From a virus: 42,281 nucleotides of DNA. Both the position numbers and the translations under genes were made by a program. Below are positions 456 to 42,254 of the stretch, one piece after another (positions within the stretch are counted from its first letter, which is position 1; each line of letters opens with the position of its first letter). The stretch spans positions 1-42,281 of IMG/VR virus record IMGVR_UViG_3300046652_000050, one strand, 5' to 3'. The notes below the pieces were generated by a model. It had not been told where the DNA came from, did not search any database, and saw nothing but the letters and a program-made list of their open reading frames with translations.

Positions 456-764
456 ATGATAATCCCAGTAAATAACCATCTACTGATAACGCCCCTCGAG
501 CATAAAACTTTTTTGCCCACAGAAAAAAGTTCTTATGATGAAATAGGCATCATCGAGGAGGTAGGATTTACGACGGCAATCCCCGTTAAAAAGGGGGACA
601 AGGTGTATTTTGATAGTTGGTTGGCCGCCAAACTCCCAAAAGGAAGCGGCGATGAATACTTTTGGCTAGTGAAATGGGATGATGTTCGGGCAATAGAATA
701 TGCTAACGAGATACCAGAACTCAGTGTGCCGGAGGGGGATACTCCACCGGTTCAAACCACTTGA
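456..764 (+). CDS. GroES-like co-chaperonin
   Basis: 102 residues, close to the family length. The start MIIPVNNHLLITPLE matches the usual opening strand of Cpn10 (RPLxDRVLVKPLE). It is followed by a polar loop (residues about 16-28) where the GroEL-binding mobile loop sits, then GIIEEVG, the VKKGDKVYF strand typical of GroES, and a closing WLVKWDDVRAIE like the LxxDDIxAI end of the family. The co-chaperonin caps the chaperonin ring and encloses the substrate. I chose ATG 456 over GTG 435 because it fits the family N-terminus. A GroEL-like gene lies 340 bases downstream, so the two probably form a working pair. Phage co-chaperonins such as T4 gp31 are known; a phage with its own pair is much less common. 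Confidence 0.85.
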   Translation: MIIPVNNHLLITPLEHKTFLPTEKSSYDEIGIIEEVGFTTAIPVKKGDKVYFDSWLAAKLPKGSGDEYFWLVKWDDVRAIEYANEIPELSVPEGDTPPVQTT

Positions 765-927
765 GAACAACATCCACGGCTCATTGGAACGGTGCGAGCG
801 GTGCGGCTTGCAGATGATGTTCAGGACGGGGATGCCGAATTATTTATACTTGTCGTATCATATAAGGGACGTGCTGAAGATGAGCGATCCGCTTTTCAAA
901 AAAGAATATCCAAATATCAATGAGTAA
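700..927 (+). CDS. Small protein with a CxxC pair
   Basis: Up to 75 residues, overlapping the end of the groES-like gene by 65 bases if ATG 700 is used; GTG 724 is an alternative that shortens the overlap. It contains CERCG preceded by Arg/Cys and His residues, suggestive of a zinc ribbon, and an amphipathic C-terminal half. It overlaps the next gene by 8 bases. Its position between the two chaperonin genes points to co-expression, but no function can be assigned. Confidence 0.6.
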   Translation: MLTRYQNSVCRRGILHRFKPLENNIHGSLERCERCGLQMMFRTGMPNYLYLSYHIRDVLKMSDPLFKKEYPNINE

Positions 928-1117
928 CCCCTATCGTGAAATTATAGAAAAGATATTGGATGAAGTGGATGTTGATATAAAAAATGCCATGATGAAATGG
1001 GATGAAAAAGAGTCTTTTCCAGCGTGGTGTATGCTTGTTGATCCCGCGAATGCGATATTACAATGGCAAGCGTTAAGAGATAGAAAATTCTTAAATAAAA
1101 ATAATGATAAAAGATAA
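920..1117 (+). CDS. Hypothetical protein between groES-like and groEL-like genes
   Basis: 65 residues, acidic and helical in character, with no recognised motif. It overlaps the gene before by 8 bases and the groEL-like gene after by 14 bases, the tight packing of a co-translated operon. There is no clear Shine-Dalgarno site. It is most likely real given the packing. Its role is unknown; a substrate adaptor for the chaperonin is only a guess from position. Confidence 0.65.
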   Translation: MSNPYREIIEKILDEVDVDIKNAMMKWDEKESFPAWCMLVDPANAILQWQALRDRKFLNKNNDKR

Positions 1118-2630
1118 TTTATTTACCGGCGATGAGGCGAGGAAGCGTTTGATGAAAGGCGTGCAAAAAGCCGCCGAAGCGGTGGCGGTTACGCTCGGTA
1201 CGGGCGGCGCAAACAGCGTCATCGAGTGCATGGAAAGCCCAAACCATTTTATTTCTAACGACGGCGCGACCATCTTATCGAGAATCCACTTTGAAGACCC
1301 GCTTGAAGAAATGGGGCGGCGCATATTATACGAGGCGGTGGGCAGGGCTAACAAATCGAGTGGCGATGGAAGTTCCACTGCTACGGTACTGACCGCCGCA
1401 ATCCTCGAAGAAGGTATGAAGCATATAGGCGAAGTCGCCCCCATGGAGATAAAGCGTTCCCTTGAAGCCTGTTTGCCCCTCATAGAGAAATCAATCAACG
1501 AACAGAAGCGCGAGATTACCTGCGAAACTGTGGGCGATGTTGCGAGTATATCAGCCGAAGACGAAAGCATCGGCGCGATGATACAGGAGATTTACCAGAA
1601 AATCGGCAAGGACGGGATTATTAATTGGGAAGCCAGCAAGACCCCCAAAGACAGTTATGAAATCGGCACGGGGATAAAAATGGAAGGCGCAAAGTGCGCT
1701 TCTCCCTATATGCACGACCTCACGGAATCTGGTTTTCTCAACAAAGCTACGCTTGAAAATCCGTTCGTCCTGCTTGCGAAGCGGAAGATAACTTCGACCA
1801 CGGAACTCGATAACCTGTTCAAAGCCCTGTGGGAGAAGGAAATCAAGGAAATCGTTGTATTTTGTGATGAGATGGAAGCCCCCGTCATAAATGCTTTGAT
1901 CCAAGCGCGTTCAAAAATAGGCTTCCGCGCGGTGGTGGTGAAGATGCCTATTATTTTCAACGACGAGTGGTGGGAAGATTTGAGCATGGCGACCGGCGGC
2001 AGGCTCATCAGCCATTCGTCAGGGGTGATGATGCGGGACGTGCAGATAAGCGACCTTGGCAAGTGTGGGCATATCATAATTGACCGTGAGGACACGTTTA
2101 TTGACGGAATCTGCGATATCTCAAAGCACATTCTCGCCCTCAAGGTTGACGGCACAGACGAGGCATTGAACCGTGCGGCGAGGTTGAACACGCAGACGGC
2201 GAGGTATTTCGTGGGGGCGCAGAGCGAGAGCGCGTTGAAATATAAAATTCTCAAGGTGGAAGACGCTATCAATGCGGCGGGATGCGCTTTGGAGCATGGA
2301 GTGGTGGCTGGGGGAGGGGTTGCACTATGGGATGTATCCGGTAATTTTCAAGACCATAAAACGATTGGTGAGGAAATTCTTGATAGCGCGTTAGAACGAC
2401 CCATACAGCAAATTACGAAAAACGCAGGAATCGAAATGGATTCAATAGAAATCGGTGAAGGGAGGGGCTATGATTCTAAGTCTGGTAAAGTGGTTGATAT
2501 GTTCGAGGCGAAAATTATCGACCCTGCGGATGTCGTCCTCGCTGCCGCGAAGAACGCTATTGGTGTAGCGGCTTCCATCCTTACCTGTTCAACGGTCGTA
2601 ACCTTGCCCCGCGAGGAAAACCCGCAATGA
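1104..2630 (+). CDS. GroEL-like chaperonin (Cpn60), divergent
   Basis: 508 residues, about 40 shorter than bacterial GroEL, without the Gly-Gly-Met tail. The ATPase parts are kept: LGTGG (about residue 31, for LGPKG), SNDG (51-54), GDGSSTAT (87-94, with the catalytic Asp), VEDA (385-388, matching the second catalytic Asp) and GVVAGGGVAL (399-408). It should form an ATP-driven folding ring. The apical domain has drifted: the usual PGFGDRR stretch reads PIIFNDEWW (282-290), and the LAGGVAVI segment before the second catalytic Asp reads LNTQTARYF. The start ATG lies within the end of the gene before, and the stop overlaps the next start (ATGA). With the groES-like gene it probably forms a phage-specific pair for folding virion proteins. 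Confidence 0.93.
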   Translation: MIKDNLFTGDEARKRLMKGVQKAAEAVAVTLGTGGANSVIECMESPNHFISNDGATILSRIHFEDPLEEMGRRILYEAVGRANKSSGDGSSTATVLTAAILEEGMKHIGEVAPMEIKRSLEACLPLIEKSINEQKREITCETVGDVASISAEDESIGAMIQEIYQKIGKDGIINWEASKTPKDSYEIGTGIKMEGAKCASPYMHDLTESGFLNKATLENPFVLLAKRKITSTTELDNLFKALWEKEIKEIVVFCDEMEAPVINALIQARSKIGFRAVVVKMPIIFNDEWWEDLSMATGGRLISHSSGVMMRDVQISDLGKCGHIIIDREDTFIDGICDISKHILALKVDGTDEALNRAARLNTQTARYFVGAQSESALKYKILKVEDAINAAGCALEHGVVAGGGVALWDVSGNFQDHKTIGEEILDSALERPIQQITKNAGIEMDSIEIGEGRGYDSKSGKVVDMFEAKIIDPADVVLAAAKNAIGVAASILTCSTVVTLPREENPQ

Positions 2631-2957: not shown

Positions 2958-3084
2958 GGGAGAATGGGCCATCCAAAGCATCAAAATAATAATCGGCATG
3001 GCAGCTGGCAGCGCAGTAATTCTGCTGCTGTACAAAATCCTGCTCCAACTCCAGTTGCTGACCCGGTTTCTTTCAGCTCGGTAG
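2950..3084 (+). CDS. Single-pass membrane micro-protein
   Basis: 44 residues with a central hydrophobic run (about residues 10-36, including IIIGMAAGSAVILLLYKILL) flanked by Lys at the N side and Arg at the C side. It starts in an 8-base overlap with the gene before (ATGAGTAA). A second frame from ATG 2964 covers the same bases but encodes a low-complexity Asn/Ser/Pro stretch, so I favour this reading and place the next gene's start after it. One of several tiny membrane proteins in this genome. Confidence 0.55.
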   Translation: MSKGEWAIQSIKIIIGMAAGSAVILLLYKILLQLQLLTRFLSAR

Positions 3085-3092
3085 AGATAGGG

Positions 3093-4034
3093 ATGAACCC
3101 GCCGCCGGATGAGATATATAAATACCGGGTGAACCGGCAGCAGACGCTCGCCCAGAACGTGATGGAAGGCATGGGGGCGATGTATATACCCGACAAGGAA
3201 GGGACGTATATCGAAGGCAGGGGGACGTTCGTGAATTACCGCGGGCTGAAAGACGAGGCGCGGGGGATAGATATGCCCAAGCCCCTGTTCCCCCAAAGGA
3301 ACGTAACCCCGCCCCAAGCGGTAGAGGCGATCAGCTATCTTAAAAGGGATTTACGCTCGATTTTCAAGTTCCTGTCTGCAAAAGCAGTAAGGCGTTATCT
3401 CGCTCTCGCGGGGATATCAGGCAAAAAACACCAAGCGGAACTAGCGACCCTCGCTTGCCAGCTATTCAACGAAACTGCGGATGCTTACTTAACGTATTGG
3501 TACATGAAAGACGGCTATTATTGCGATGTGGTGAGGGAGTTGCGGAAACCGATAGAGATAATCCTGCAAGGCCTCGGCGTACCGGCGGAAAGCACGTTCA
3601 AAACCAGCGAAGCGTTCGGAAATATGCTAGAATACGATTGGGGTTATCGTTGGCCGGTGCAGGATGCGTTTGGGGAACTTGACAAGGGCGCATTATTTGA
3701 GGATTTTCCCAAGGAAGCCGAGCGGGTCATTTCAATCATAGAAAAGCGGTGGCCAGATGCTCCCGACATGGCTGACAAGTTCCGCGCCCCCTTAAAGATA
3801 ATAAAGCTCATGTGGCTCATACCCCGCTACAGGAAGTTAATCAGGGCGGCGGTATGGGAAATGGATTTCGAGAAATGCAAAATAGACGAAGGGGAGGAAT
3901 ACCACACCTTGCTTTATGGGACGTACAACGTGAAGGGGAGGAGTTTGGAGGAAAGGGTGAAGATTTACGAGGGATTGCACGGGACGGATTTGAATAAACA
4001 ACCACCGAGAGTGGTGGTAAGGCAAAGACAATAA
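3093..4034 (+). CDS. Hypothetical protein upstream of terminase
   Basis: 313 residues from ATG 3093 (356 if ATG 2964 is used; the extra 43 residues are low complexity and overlap the membrane micro-protein in another frame). It is soluble, mixed helix, with many aromatic and basic residues (for example YLTYWYMKDGYY) and no family I recognise. The stop overlaps the TerS start by one base (TAATG). Position directly before the terminase genes suggests a DNA-packaging or early head role, but this is inference only. Confidence 0.75.
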   Translation: MNPPPDEIYKYRVNRQQTLAQNVMEGMGAMYIPDKEGTYIEGRGTFVNYRGLKDEARGIDMPKPLFPQRNVTPPQAVEAISYLKRDLRSIFKFLSAKAVRRYLALAGISGKKHQAELATLACQLFNETADAYLTYWYMKDGYYCDVVRELRKPIEIILQGLGVPAESTFKTSEAFGNMLEYDWGYRWPVQDAFGELDKGALFEDFPKEAERVISIIEKRWPDAPDMADKFRAPLKIIKLMWLIPRYRKLIRAAVWEMDFEKCKIDEGEEYHTLLYGTYNVKGRSLEERVKIYEGLHGTDLNKQPPRVVVRQRQ

Positions 4035-4423
4035 TGGCGACTATTAAGCAGAAAAAGGCGGCAAAGGTGCTGGTGGGAAATGGTGGGAACGTAACCCAAG
4101 CTATGTTGGAAGTAGGTTATAGCCCGAATACGGCAAATACGCCCCAGAAATTGACGGAGAGTGAGGGGTTTCAAGAGGTATGGCATGAGCTTATTCCAAG
4201 ACGCTTGGTGGTTGAAACACATAAAAAGATCATTAAGAAGGTTGATAAAGATGGCCAACCCCATGGTGATGCGGTAAAGGGGGTAGACATGGCGTACAAG
4301 GTCGACGGTGCTTATGCGCCGGAACGTCATATAAATGTTAATATGGGTATAGAGAAACGTCCTGATGTCATCGAACTTACCAATAAAATCCTTGCCGCAC
4401 ATCGAGAACGGCGAATGGGTTGA
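4034..4423 (+). CDS. terS: Terminase small subunit
   Basis: 129 residues. The N-terminal 45 residues (KQKKAAKVLVGNGGN, then TQAMLEVGYS and a second helix) have the helix-turn-helix pattern of small terminase subunits, which bind the packaging start site and hand DNA to the large subunit. The rest is charged and helical and would form the oligomerisation part. It directly precedes and overlaps the large subunit by 59 bases, the usual order. Confidence 0.82.
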   Translation: MATIKQKKAAKVLVGNGGNVTQAMLEVGYSPNTANTPQKLTESEGFQEVWHELIPRRLVVETHKKIIKKVDKDGQPHGDAVKGVDMAYKVDGAYAPERHINVNMGIEKRPDVIELTNKILAAHRERRMG

Positions 4424-6086
4424 AATTGATGGGAAGCGGTATACCAAAGAGGAAGTGGAAGCATCTTATGAGAATGCTCCAACCCTATGGGTTCTAAAGC
4501 ACGGATTGAAGAATGAAGTAGGATTCCCCATTGAGTTTGAAAAGCGCAGTTTCTTATGGGATATTTACAATGACCTTTCCCCGTTCCAAGCGATATTGAA
4601 GCCGCCACAGGTAGGCATGACGGTATGCAACGCCCTTAAAAGTTTCTATGTCGCAAAGAAGTTAAAGCGGCAAATCATATATACGCTTCCCACGATGGGC
4701 GATGTGCAAGATATGGTCGGTGGCTCGTTCAACCGTATCATCGCCCAGAACCCCTTGCTGATGGATTGGGTGAAAGACCATGACACGGTTGAGCAGAAGC
4801 AGGTGGGCGATTCGATGATATTCTATCGTGGCACGTTCACGGCGAAGCAAGCGATGATGATTCCAAGCGGTCTGAACATCCATGACGAAGTTGACGCGAG
4901 CGATCCCGACATCATCACGCAGTATGAGAACAGGTTGCAAGCCCAAGAGGATGGCGGCTGGAGATGGTACTTTTCCCATCCATCCCTCAAAGGACACGGG
5001 GTGGATGTCTATTGGGAGCAGTCCGATAAAAAAGAATGGTTTATCAAATGTAAAAATGGACATACCTTTACACTCGCGTGGCCAGAAAATGTCGATAGTA
5101 TGCGCGGCGAATATGTCTGCAAAGAATGCCAAGCGGTTATATCGGATAGCGAAAGAATTAACGGCGAATGGCGAAGTACTGCATTGGGGGATTTCTCAGG
5201 CTATCACATCAGCCAGCTCATGCTCTACAACAAGAGCGCGAAAGACATTATCAAAGCGTCGCAAGACCCGCTGAAGGATAAGCAATACTTTTATAACTAT
5301 GTTCTGGGCTTACCTTACATCGGGAGCGACGATAGGATTGATCCTAGCGTTGTCCTGAAGAACTGCGTTGACATCACAAACGCGCAGGAAGGGAGGGTCA
5401 TCATCGGAGCTGACACAGGGCACGGGATACATTATGTGCTGATGGACAAGGAAGGGGTTTTCTTTTACGACCATGAAACCGAAATCACCGCGAGCAAAGA
5501 CCCCTACGATAAAATACGTTCATTATTGCGTCGGTTTGACCGTTCCGTTGCTGTCTTTGACCAAGGAGGCGACCTTATTGGGGTACGAAAGCTTCAGGCC
5601 GAGTATCCCGGGAGGGTGTTTCTCTGCTTTTACCAGAAAGACCGCAAAACGGTTGAACTCGTTGAATGGGGCAAGGACGAAGAATACGGCAAAGTGAAAG
5701 TGGATAGGAACAGGATGATGACGCTCGTCGTCGAGCAACTAAGGGACATCGGGCGCATAAGGTTGAACGGCGTGAAAGAGGATTGGGCAGAGTTCGCCTC
5801 GCACTTTGGCAATATGTACCGCGAGAAGATGGAAGTGAAATCAACGCCGGGCAAGGACGACAAGACGCTCTACAGCAACGAGTACGTTTGGAAGCGCAAC
5901 GCGGCTGACCACTACTGTCATGCGCTGCTTTACGCCATCGTAGGCCTCCAAAAGTATGGCGGCGACCTTGCGAAGATCATCGGCAACAGCCCGCTCGAAG
6001 GGTTCCGCAAAGCTCAAATCATAAGTGACGCAGGCGTGCAGTTGCAATGGGGCAGCCAAGCTGAATTCAACAAATACAACCCATGA
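4365..6086 (+). CDS. terL: Terminase large subunit, GpA-like
   Basis: 573 residues. The ATPase domain has KPPQVGMT (79-86), a deviant Walker A with the Lys at the front as in lambda gpA, and a Walker B ending HDE (Asp174, Glu175). A CxxxH...CxxC zinc site follows (Cys229, His233, Cys252, Cys255), as in GpA-family terminases. The nuclease domain shows acidic positions in IIGADTG (Asp350), AVFDQGGD (Asp399) and AADHYCHA near residue 525. It powers DNA translocation into the prohead and cuts the concatemer. ATG 4365 gives a 59-base overlap with terS; a shorter start is possible but no Shine-Dalgarno site decides. Confidence 0.93.
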   Translation: MSSNLPIKSLPHIENGEWVEIDGKRYTKEEVEASYENAPTLWVLKHGLKNEVGFPIEFEKRSFLWDIYNDLSPFQAILKPPQVGMTVCNALKSFYVAKKLKRQIIYTLPTMGDVQDMVGGSFNRIIAQNPLLMDWVKDHDTVEQKQVGDSMIFYRGTFTAKQAMMIPSGLNIHDEVDASDPDIITQYENRLQAQEDGGWRWYFSHPSLKGHGVDVYWEQSDKKEWFIKCKNGHTFTLAWPENVDSMRGEYVCKECQAVISDSERINGEWRSTALGDFSGYHISQLMLYNKSAKDIIKASQDPLKDKQYFYNYVLGLPYIGSDDRIDPSVVLKNCVDITNAQEGRVIIGADTGHGIHYVLMDKEGVFFYDHETEITASKDPYDKIRSLLRRFDRSVAVFDQGGDLIGVRKLQAEYPGRVFLCFYQKDRKTVELVEWGKDEEYGKVKVDRNRMMTLVVEQLRDIGRIRLNGVKEDWAEFASHFGNMYREKMEVKSTPGKDDKTLYSNEYVWKRNAADHYCHALLYAIVGLQKYGGDLAKIIGNSPLEGFRKAQIISDAGVQLQWGSQAEFNKYNP

Positions 6087-11414: not shown

Positions 11415-12458
11415 ATGTCTCAACCAACACCGGGCGTAAACGTGACGAACACGACGAACCAGTATCTGGCTCCTCGCTGGGTCGACATCGTTTTGCGCGA
11501 CAATTATTTCTTCGGTAAAGTGATGCAGAAGACCAAAAAGTGGGAGGGCAGCCAAATGCTTTTCCCCTTAAAGTACCAGAAGGGCGTACAGACAGTAGCC
11601 TTCAATGGGTATGACCTTCTCCCCATCACGCAGCAGCCCGTATCGGTCAATATGACGTTCTACCCGACATTCACGGCGACGAACGTTTCCTTGGCTGGCA
11701 CGGACTTGTCAATCAACAACACTTCCATGCAGACGCTCAAACTGATGAGCGTGATGATGGAATCGCGCGCGCAGGACGCGGCTGACGACATCGGCAACTT
11801 CCTGCAGGGCGACGGCACGAGCTTTGGCTCGAAAGCACCGTCAGGCCTCGCAAACACTGTCGACAACGGCACGACTGCCGCGACCTACGGCGGTTTGACC
11901 CGCGCTACCTATTCGGGTTTGAATTCCACGCTTACGGCTTCCACGAACAATGCTATTTCGCTCGTGCAGGTTCGGACGCTGTGGAATAACATCGCGGATG
12001 GCGGCGTTATCCCGAACTTCATCCTTACGGACTACACCACATGGGCGTATTTCGAGCAACTCCAGACCCCGTTCCAGAAGAACAACATGGACTTCAACGC
12101 CAGCGACCGGCAGGTTTCACAGGTATCCGGCTATTCGGATATGCGGTGGGACGGCATGATTGTTTCCCGCGATAAGAAAGTTACCACGGGTAACTTCTAT
12201 ATGTTGAACCTCGATGTCTTTAATTGGTATTCTTTGAAGTGGTGGAAGGGCGAGCGCGTGTCCCCGAAAGCGAAGGACATCAACGGCAATGTGTACGATG
12301 ACAAAATGTACGCGCCGGGCGATGCGTTCACATGGACGGGCATGGTTGAGGCTTACAACCAAGGTACGGTCAACGGCTTCATGATTCTCGGTGGACAGCT
12401 TATCTGCGTAGCTCCATTTCGTCAGGGAGTCCTTACTGGCATTTCAGCCGCTGCATAG
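11415..12458 (+). CDS. Major capsid protein
   Basis: 347 residues, in the right place (after scaffold) and size for an HK97-fold capsid protein. Features include an N-arm, a long helix with many small residues (LMSVMMESRAQDAADDIGNFLQG, the spine-helix region), Asn/Thr-rich loops, and a C-terminal half with paired beta strands (DMRWDGMIVSRDK, FYMLNLDVFNWYS). It would form the icosahedral shell. There is no separate protease gene near, so the scaffold probably leaves intact. Neighbouring genes carry the same leader motif, suggesting matched high expression. Confidence 0.85.
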   Translation: MSQPTPGVNVTNTTNQYLAPRWVDIVLRDNYFFGKVMQKTKKWEGSQMLFPLKYQKGVQTVAFNGYDLLPITQQPVSVNMTFYPTFTATNVSLAGTDLSINNTSMQTLKLMSVMMESRAQDAADDIGNFLQGDGTSFGSKAPSGLANTVDNGTTAATYGGLTRATYSGLNSTLTASTNNAISLVQVRTLWNNIADGGVIPNFILTDYTTWAYFEQLQTPFQKNNMDFNASDRQVSQVSGYSDMRWDGMIVSRDKKVTTGNFYMLNLDVFNWYSLKWWKGERVSPKAKDINGNVYDDKMYAPGDAFTWTGMVEAYNQGTVNGFMILGGQLICVAPFRQGVLTGISAAA

Positions 12459-31519: not shown

Positions 31520-32128
31520 ATGCCGAAGGGCATCTATCCCAGTAACAAGGGTCATAAAATAAGCGAGGACACACGCCAGAAAATGTCCATCGCCCAACTT
31601 GGCAATAAGAGTAATTTAGGCCGTCATCTTTCGGAAAAACACAAGCAACACATCAAGGAAGCCAATATAAGAATTGGTCGTAAATTTCCAAATTGGCTAG
31701 GCAAACATCACTCGGACGAAACCAAGCGCAAAATGTCTTTGCGGGTTTTTACGCCGCAACATAGGCAACAGTTGAGCATTGCAGGTGTCGGACGAGTGTG
31801 TTCAGAGGCCACAAAATTGAAACTTCGCAAAGCAGCTTTAAAACACGGTCTTACGCCGTTACACAAACTCATACGGCAATCAGCAGAATATGCAAAGTGG
31901 CGAAAGGGGGTTTTTGAGCATGATGATTACCGTTGCTTCGATTGTGGCGCGAGAAGCGAAGCTGGTGAGCGCGTCGTTCTTAACGCCGACCATATTTATC
32001 CATTTGCTTTGTATCCTCGATTGAGATTTATGCCGGAGAACGGGCGTACTCTTTGCGTTCCCTGCCATCGGGCAACCAACACTTACGGCAATCATTGTAA
32101 AGGTCGCTCAATCTATACAAAAAAATAA
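31520..32128 (+). CDS. NUMOD3-HNH homing endonuclease
   Basis: 202 residues. Four NUMOD3-like units (GHKISEDTRQKMS; GRHLSEKHKQHIKEA; GKHHSDETKRKMS; CSEATKLKLRKA) bind DNA. The C-terminal HNH has CFDC (139-142), NADHIYP (Asp157, His158) and LCVPCH (179-183). It sits between the lysin and holin-like genes, a common spot for selfish insertions. Not needed for phage growth, it spreads by cutting DNA at the empty site. Confidence 0.88.
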   Translation: MPKGIYPSNKGHKISEDTRQKMSIAQLGNKSNLGRHLSEKHKQHIKEANIRIGRKFPNWLGKHHSDETKRKMSLRVFTPQHRQQLSIAGVGRVCSEATKLKLRKAALKHGLTPLHKLIRQSAEYAKWRKGVFEHDDYRCFDCGARSEAGERVVLNADHIYPFALYPRLRFMPENGRTLCVPCHRATNTYGNHCKGRSIYTKK

Positions 32129-36904: not shown

Positions 36905-37234
36905 ATGGCATCTCACCCGACCAGAACTAAAGAACAGGAAAAAGTAGAAGCGACGCAAGCGTTAAAAGCGATATTTTTAGTTTTTGGCAATAAGTGTGGA
37001 AAATGCGGTTTTGATAATCCGCTTGCCTTACAGATAGACCATATCAATGGCGGCGGGGGCAAAGAAAAGCGCAATGGCAATAGGTGGTACTATAAAAAAA
37101 TACTCGCCGAAATAACTTCCGGCAATCCGAGGAGATACCAACTCCTTTGCGCCAATTGCAACTGGATCAAGAAGAAATCAAGCGATAAGGAAAACGGAGG
37201 TCGAAAATCTGCCCTAGTAAAGAAACTTAACTAG
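36905..37234 (+). CDS. Small HNH endonuclease
   Basis: 109 residues. CGKC, then LQIDHINGGG (the HN part of the nuclease core) and LLCANCNWIKK (second zinc pair and closing residues) give a compact HNH nuclease with Lys-rich ends. First gene behind the attenuator-like leader, so its expression is probably controlled. It may be a homing enzyme or take part in early DNA processing. Confidence 0.82.
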   Translation: MASHPTRTKEQEKVEATQALKAIFLVFGNKCGKCGFDNPLALQIDHINGGGGKEKRNGNRWYYKKILAEITSGNPRRYQLLCANCNWIKKKSSDKENGGRKSALVKKLN

Positions 37235-41315: not shown

Positions 41316-41833
41316 ACCAAGAACCAAAACATCCCATCACCGGCGAGGAGTGCCGTCCCTATGACTATACGGGTCATTGTCGGCACATGGACATTTCAAT
41401 TTGCCCCCATTGCGGCAAGCCGGTGCACGATTGCTTCGCGCCGGTCGAGCCGGCGGCGAAGGAAGCATTGACGCATGACCAGTTCGATAAAAATGAATTA
41501 CGGGATAACGTGACATTTATTCCGGCGGCGAAGGAAACTTGGTATCTTGATTTGGACGTTCTCATCTCGCGATTCCATTTGACGCTTGGGCAAGATTCCA
41601 CGCTCAAAAAGTTCATCTCTTCCCTCCTCGCCTCTCAGCGGCAGGAAGCGTATGAGGAAATGGATAACAAGTGGCAAATGAAATTCGCCTATAAACTGAA
41701 CGAACTCATTAAATTACTTGAACCAGTTGCGCCCGCTTACTCAATCCGTCTTACTAATATAACCGCAGATATGTATGACTGTTTTTCCGCCTACCAGTCG
41801 AAGCTCAAATCCATGACTCATGAAAAGGAGTAA
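41312..41833 (+). CDS. Hypothetical protein with N-terminal Cys/His cluster
   Basis: 173 residues. The first 45 residues hold GHCRHMDISICPHCGKPVHDC, a likely zinc site. The rest is helical (SSLLASQRQEAYEEMDNKWQ). It overlaps the NinG-like gene by 14 bases. No family recognised. Confidence 0.68.
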   Translation: MNQEPKHPITGEECRPYDYTGHCRHMDISICPHCGKPVHDCFAPVEPAAKEALTHDQFDKNELRDNVTFIPAAKETWYLDLDVLISRFHLTLGQDSTLKKFISSLLASQRQEAYEEMDNKWQMKFAYKLNELIKLLEPVAPAYSIRLTNITADMYDCFSAYQSKLKSMTHEKE

Positions 41834-42254
41834 TATAAAACGTATCAGCAGCGATCCCCGCAAAAAAGCGATAGCCGCGCTCGACAGGGTTTTGAGCAAG
41901 ATGGTGCGCGAGCGGGACAAGGACGAGGGCTGCATTACTTGTGGCAAAGACGGCGTGATGGATTGCGGCCACTTTATCCGGCGCGAGTGCATGAGCACAA
42001 GGTTCAATCCGATGAATGTTAACGCGCAATGCCGGCAGTGCAACCATTTCTTGTCCGGCAACCTCTACGAGTACGCCTTGCGCTTGGACGCGAAGTACTA
42101 CGGCGGCACGGCTTGGTTACTCCGCGCGGAAAGCAAGAGCATGCGGACGTGGACCGTGGACGAGCTGAACTTCCTTACGGATGCCGCGCGGAAAGGGAGC
42201 AGGGTGTACAACCAAGCGTATGAGGGACTTGCCCCACTGCAAAAAGCAGCGTAA
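41820..42254 (+). CDS. NinG/Rap-like recombination endonuclease
   Basis: 144 residues. CITCGK (38-43), DCGHFIRRE (48-56), TRFNPMNVNAQCRQCNHFLSG in outline (60-80, with Cys71 and Cys74) and GNLYEYALRLD match the NinG (lambda Rap) family. These enzymes cut branched recombination intermediates. It lies at the end of the SSB-like operon, fitting a role in recombination-dependent DNA handling before packaging. Confidence 0.86.
   Translation: MKRSNIKRISSDPRKKAIAALDRVLSKMVRERDKDEGCITCGKDGVMDCGHFIRRECMSTRFNPMNVNAQCRQCNHFLSGNLYEYALRLDAKYYGGTAWLLRAESKSMRTWTVDELNFLTDAARKGSRVYNQAYEGLAPLQKAA

Follow-up and report, generated by a model that had tools for sequence, protein, structure and literature searches.

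Organization of the chaperonin locus

The window, that is, the whole stretch of 42,281 bases analysed here (virus record IMGVR_UViG_3300046652_000050), carries its chaperonin genes in a single cluster of overlapping reading frames on the plus strand. The cluster opens with p63 (284–475), a small protein with the motif RRLKNLW...KKLATII encoded 5' of a GroES/Cpn10-like co-chaperonin gene (456–764; 102 aa, starting at ATG 456). This gene is followed by one for a 75-aa protein, hereafter CHCC (700–927), by the second interposed gene, g65 (920–1117), by a GroEL/Cpn60-like chaperonin gene (1104–2630; 508 aa) and, directly 3' of the latter, by the gene for ZnR (2627–2800), a small protein with four cysteines arranged as CxxC...CxxC. 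An earlier sequence-only reading had recognized the overlapping cluster, but the extent that it gave, 456–2630, is too short, since p63 and ZnR, which it did not mention, also belong to the cassette, p63 as its outer member. The next gene after ZnR, g55 (2790–2957), is a neighbour outside the cassette.

Further along the same strand lie the genes for the terminase small subunit (4034–4423; PHROG terminase small subunit, E = 1e-4), the terminase large subunit (4365–6086; PHROG terminase large subunit, E = 3e-77) and the major capsid protein (11415–12458; PHROG 9953 major head protein, E = 2e-33). Between g55 and the terminase, a 356-aa gene with no assigned function (2964–4034) is kept in close relatives only, and HNH endonuclease genes together with a gene for a NinG/Rap-like endonuclease were noted at 31520–32125, 36905–37231 and 41820–42251. 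No tRNA genes were found in the window. Searches of bacterial and archaeal genomes with the terminase and GroEL as queries gave no matches.

Identification of the GroEL and GroES homologues

As judged from its sequence, the product of 1104–2630 is certainly a GroEL with the nucleotide-site residues intact. It matches Pfam PF00118 with 117.9 bits (cut-off 34.3; E = 6e-34; residues 24–499) and PHROG 5725, 'chaperonin groEL', with E = 1e-91, which upholds the earlier call of a Cpn60-like gene. Among solved structures, its best matches are group I GroELs; identity is ~30% to the GroELs of phages and bacteria and 61% to its closest relative. Among 15 members of the clade described below, D53, D88, D387, G403 and G405 are invariant and G404 is nearly so, and all six positions are invariant when the comparison is made with other phage GroELs. 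We take these residues to be the counterparts of E. coli D52, D87, D398 and G414–416. Alignment with solved GroELs shows the protein to be ~11 residues shorter in the apical-intermediate stretch that follows DREDTFIDG.

The GroES homologue is more divergent at the profile level. The window protein scores 20.8 bits against Pfam Cpn10, just under the cut-off of 21.1, whereas the proteins encoded in the same gene position in four relatives (L028, L069, L073 and L078) score 23–32 bits and exceed it; overall, 8 of 15 clade members match Cpn10 at E < 0.1. A profile search of the PDB with the GroES sequence gave no significant match, and no window-type GroES was found by tblastn in annotated phages. 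An AlphaFold2 model was built from 43 aligned relatives (pLDDT 79.6) and compared with known structures using Foldseek. The top 28 matches were all Cpn10/GroES, gp31 or chaperonin subunits of CrClpP-S2c, the last being two matches that lie within CrClpP-S2c entries. All of ranks 1–28 had a probability of 1.00 and a query TM-score of about 0.5–0.6, with E < 0.001 at rank 1 only. Given that relatives in the same position exceed the Pfam cut-off and that the fold of the model matches Cpn10/GroES, we accept the identity of this gene; that 456–764 encodes a GroES-like protein with a predicted beta-barrel fold is well supported, and the earlier Cpn10-like call stands. In the clade, the candidate mobile loop is short and of low model confidence, with TFLP, TYLP, SFIA or QILV aligned where E. 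coli has IVL. The roof segment is lacking in both sequence and model.

A fixed gene set in a clade of uncultured phages

Relatives were gathered through the terminase (23 loci), GroEL (50 loci) and the capsid protein (58 loci), the terminase large subunit serving to find relatives independently of GroEL. The counts given below are of loci, some near-duplicates included, and are limited to GroEL-bearing loci with enough flanking sequence. One locus (L080) was left out of the counts and taken as lying outside the clade because its GroEL is only 27% identical to that of the window and none of the companion genes is present. The remaining loci come from uncultured tailed phages with genomes of about 40 kb and form a clade in which GroEL is 34–61% identical to that of the window. 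The genes for GroES, CHCC, GroEL and ZnR occur together in every locus with room for them, save one without ZnR. Distance rules alone missed CHCC in L024, L061 and L062 and GroES in L158, where the genes are nevertheless present. Most relatives also keep the order of the window, from GroES to terminase to capsid.

The records chosen by their capsid protein gave the same picture. All five of those of at least 35 kb carry GroEL, GroES, CHCC and ZnR, while the 8 of 20 searched in which GroEL was missing are all fragments of 10–23 kb that do not necessarily reach the chaperonin region. The terminase of the clade is at best about 26% identical to those of annotated phages, among which it has no near relative. 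Since no cultured relative stands close to it in terminase sequence, the clade offers a clean target for isolation.

Some relatives carry inserts in their terminase and capsid genes. The terminase large subunit frames of L024 (7953–10616), L027 (7977–10478) and L029 (699–3992) are enlarged by in-frame inserts at differing sites, with intein-like ends such as CVDEETEVLTENG...VVSVTGQ and CFVAGTKVLTVSGE...ILVSNC; the L029 terminase appears to hold two of them. In G001, G005, G013, G017 and G028, the capsid gene shows an intron-like split with inserts of ~560–760 bases at varying positions.

CHCC and ZnR are putative zinc-type proteins

The sequence-only reading had described a gene with a CxxC pair between GroES and GroEL. 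This gene is real, but it starts at ATG 700 rather than near 760, and its motif is Cys-His-Cys-Cys and not CxxC alone. The start is indicated by the N-terminal RYQNSxC....LH that relatives share, and it produces a 65-nt overlap with the 3' end of GroES. Across 45 sequences, Cys10, Cys32 and Cys35 are invariant and His16 is more than 90% conserved; in L009, His16 is replaced by Cys, which would be the exchange expected of a metal ligand. CHCC thus has four conserved residues of the metal-ligand type, forming a putative zinc site, followed by a conserved helical C-terminal part, and its structure was modelled with a pLDDT of 90.5. ZnR also has four residues of this type: its two CxxC pairs (Cys7, Cys10, Cys40 and Cys43) are invariant in 38 sequences, and it is likewise a putative zinc binder.

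Searches with CHCC gave no significant match to a described family. The window protein had no significant match in Pfam, the fold search gave none at E < 0.001, the PDB profile search with its sequence gave none that was significant, and tblastn gave none in annotated phages. The best of its weak matches was to PHROG 2670, of unknown function (seen in 7 of 16 members, with E = 8e-5 at best), and together the weak matches point to zinc ribbons and phage families of unknown function.

The earlier reading had also proposed that both interposed genes may be dedicated cofactors of the chaperonin. For CHCC, recurrence is complete: in all of the roughly 50 related viral loci that have space for it, with GroEL identities as low as 34%, the gene adjoins GroEL, always on the side facing GroES, which excludes that it never co-occurs with chaperonins. 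By contrast, g65 is a real frame whose sole relative, in L027, is positioned 3' of GroEL; it does not recur between GroES and GroEL, and we rejected it as a dedicated cofactor. The proposal therefore survives for CHCC, for which a cofactor role is suggested by its company, and is unsupported for g65.

ZnR shows a comparable constancy, adjoining GroEL in 63 of the 64 loci that have room for it. With an iterated HMM, p63 was located directly 5' of GroES in 26 of the 48 loci long enough to hold it, among them three in which the cassette is relocated (L047, L060 and L075); limited sensitivity may account for its non-detection elsewhere. It has no match in Pfam or PHROG.

The cassette holds together at other genomic positions

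In three phages, G006 (L047), G012 (L060) and G023 (L075), the cassette sits on the opposite strand and a long way from the genes for the terminase and the capsid protein. The block of G006 reads p63-GroES-CHCC-GroEL-ZnR, the genes after ZnR are on the other strand, and g55 is still located near the terminase. All five cassette genes are retained in G012. In G023, GroEL is cut by the contig end and ZnR is found near the opposite contig end. Provided that these contigs are not chimeric assemblies, the cassette stays together when it is elsewhere in the genome. An intact block elsewhere, with g55 remaining at the G006 terminase, shows where the cassette ends, and g55 was rejected as a member; it was not detected in divergent loci.

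These arrangements bear on the idea that the head-gene region simply descends unchanged in one lineage, the small genes being neighbours by history. The GroES-terminase-capsid order retained by most relatives is what such inheritance would produce, but the idea is strained by three phages with an inverted, displaced and intact block, one of which left g55 behind. Moreover, g65 and other small genes come and go in the very slot in which CHCC is constant. We regard pure inheritance of gene order as improbable.

We also compared the divergence of the cassette members. Distances were calculated in 28 non-redundant loci, and partial correlations with the terminase distance held fixed were assessed by permutation. 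The raw correlation was 0.75 for GroEL-GroES and 0.75 for GroEL-CHCC (n = 28); beyond the terminase, it was 0.70 for GroEL-GroES, 0.68 for GroEL-CHCC and 0.49 for GroEL-ZnR (each with a permutation p of 0.001). The divergence of CHCC thus follows that of GroEL as closely as the divergence of GroES does. Since physical linkage can add to covariation, we consider this result as supporting rather than decisive. Likewise, neighbouring genes are co-inherited, so that linkage and covariation alone do not show a physical partnership.

The same data speak to whether the phage GroES might pair with the GroEL of the host, the phage GroEL being separate or degenerate. T4, whose phage lid works on the host chaperonin, provides a precedent (PMC6318259). 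This is nonetheless very improbable for the present clade: both genes are found close together in every relative, the nucleotide-site residues of GroEL are intact, and the distances of GroEL and GroES covary beyond the terminase.

Proposed role of the cassette

We slightly favour a reading in which the cassette is a self-contained phage chaperonin unit for virion assembly, accompanied by two dedicated zinc-type accessory proteins. The GroEL/GroES pair is well supported; the fixed company of CHCC and ZnR suggests their accessory role. In the proposed mechanism, the phage GroEL would assemble into a ring and form an ATP-driven folding chamber. The phage GroES would cap this chamber through a mobile loop that is short and hydrophobic at its tip, and the lid that it forms would lack the roof hairpin, as that of T4 gp31 does. 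The chaperonin would serve to fold phage-encoded proteins, most probably those of the head, for instance the major capsid protein. The latter, proposed as a client by analogy, shows 49–83% identity among 26 of the 28 records that carry the chaperonin, which makes it a plausible shared client. CHCC and ZnR would act with the chaperonin, their most probable roles being those of adaptors or assembly factors.

CHCC and ZnR could instead be zinc proteins of the nucleic-acid-binding or transcription type that share the operon, for example as its regulators, and have no action on the working chaperonin. We consider this a serious possibility, if one short of probable. Phages commonly carry small zinc-ribbon proteins, whose role is mostly unknown, and the weak matches of CHCC described above are of this kind. 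Near the terminase of record G006 (L171:233–391), moreover, a 53-aa protein with the pattern C...LHKW...CxxC is weakly CHCC-like and has no adjoining chaperonin; since phage proteins of this pattern also exist without chaperonins, CHCC may do a general job. Other phage GroEL/GroES pairs are devoid of CHCC and ZnR, indicating that the pair works without them there. Against this, CHCC and ZnR persist when the terminase is distant or the block is elsewhere, while the equally small g55 does not follow, and the distances of CHCC match those of GroEL as closely as those of GroES do.

Within the accessory reading, CHCC and ZnR might go further and constitute a new class of cofactor that binds the phage GroEL or GroES and is required for assembly, for head-protein specificity or for the choice between phage and host partners. 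This would make it the first known chaperonin with dedicated third and fourth components. This stronger version is tentative, and we think it rather unlikely. If CHCC or ZnR do bind the machine, chaperonins would gain partners beyond the lid.

Comparison with known phage chaperonins

The sequence-only reading considered a full pair uncommon in a phage of about 42 kb, which is only partly right. Bracher et al. 2020 (PMC7185714), who cite Marine et al. 2017, note the joint presence of GroEL and GroES homologues in some phages, and annotated phages of 39, 60 and 72.5 kb carry pairs as well. Cpn10 and Cpn60 genes stand side by side, as in the window, in Cellulophaga phi38:1 (Callevirus; 72.5 kb), the Flavobacterium elemo phages (60 kb) and Caudoviricetes MW202566 (39 kb). 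Their GroELs are only 28–31% identical to that of the window, and CHCC and ZnR are absent from all of them by profile search. The elemo phages have the reversed order, GroEL before GroES (L006, 4971–6784), and phi38:1 has one unrelated small gene between its pair, which we rejected as a relative of CHCC because its sequence has no cysteines.

The TM7 phage DolZOral124_53_65 (38.8 kb) encodes a Cpn60, and its capsid protein is related to that of the window (25% identity); its GroEL is very distant, and CHCC and ZnR were not found in it. In the TM7 (Saccharibacteria) phage MG269973.1 (L081, 14894–17498), a Cpn60 gene is preceded by a small, possibly GroES-like frame, and the capsid protein is a distant relative of that of the window. 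GroELs of environmental phages have been described from soil and marine viruses, with expression in soil as transcript and peptide (PMC8390657); the main text of that article mentions neither a GroES nor a co-chaperonin, and no companion genes were noted in it.

The GroES of the window shares its predicted fold with T4 gp31 (1g31 was among the matches), and both are without a roof segment, although the two are 13% identical over the match and the mobile loop of the window protein is shorter. Folding of the T4 capsid protein requires gp31, which is devoid of roof loops, an absence believed to help in this folding (PMC6318259). However, gp31 works with the host GroEL, whereas the window encodes a phage GroEL beside its GroES. 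Phages EL and OBP likewise encode GroEL-like ring subunits, which reportedly function with no known co-chaperonin (PMC5934643, PMC7185714); unlike them, the clade of the window always encodes one.

A phage GroEL/GroES pair is therefore already known, while conserved zinc-type companions are, as far as our searches reach, undescribed. These findings bear on the question of why some phages carry a whole GroEL/GroES system although the host has one. The fixed set, with two tiny proteins absent from the annotated phage pairs examined, provides concrete candidates, amenable to expression, for the features that set a viral chaperonin apart.
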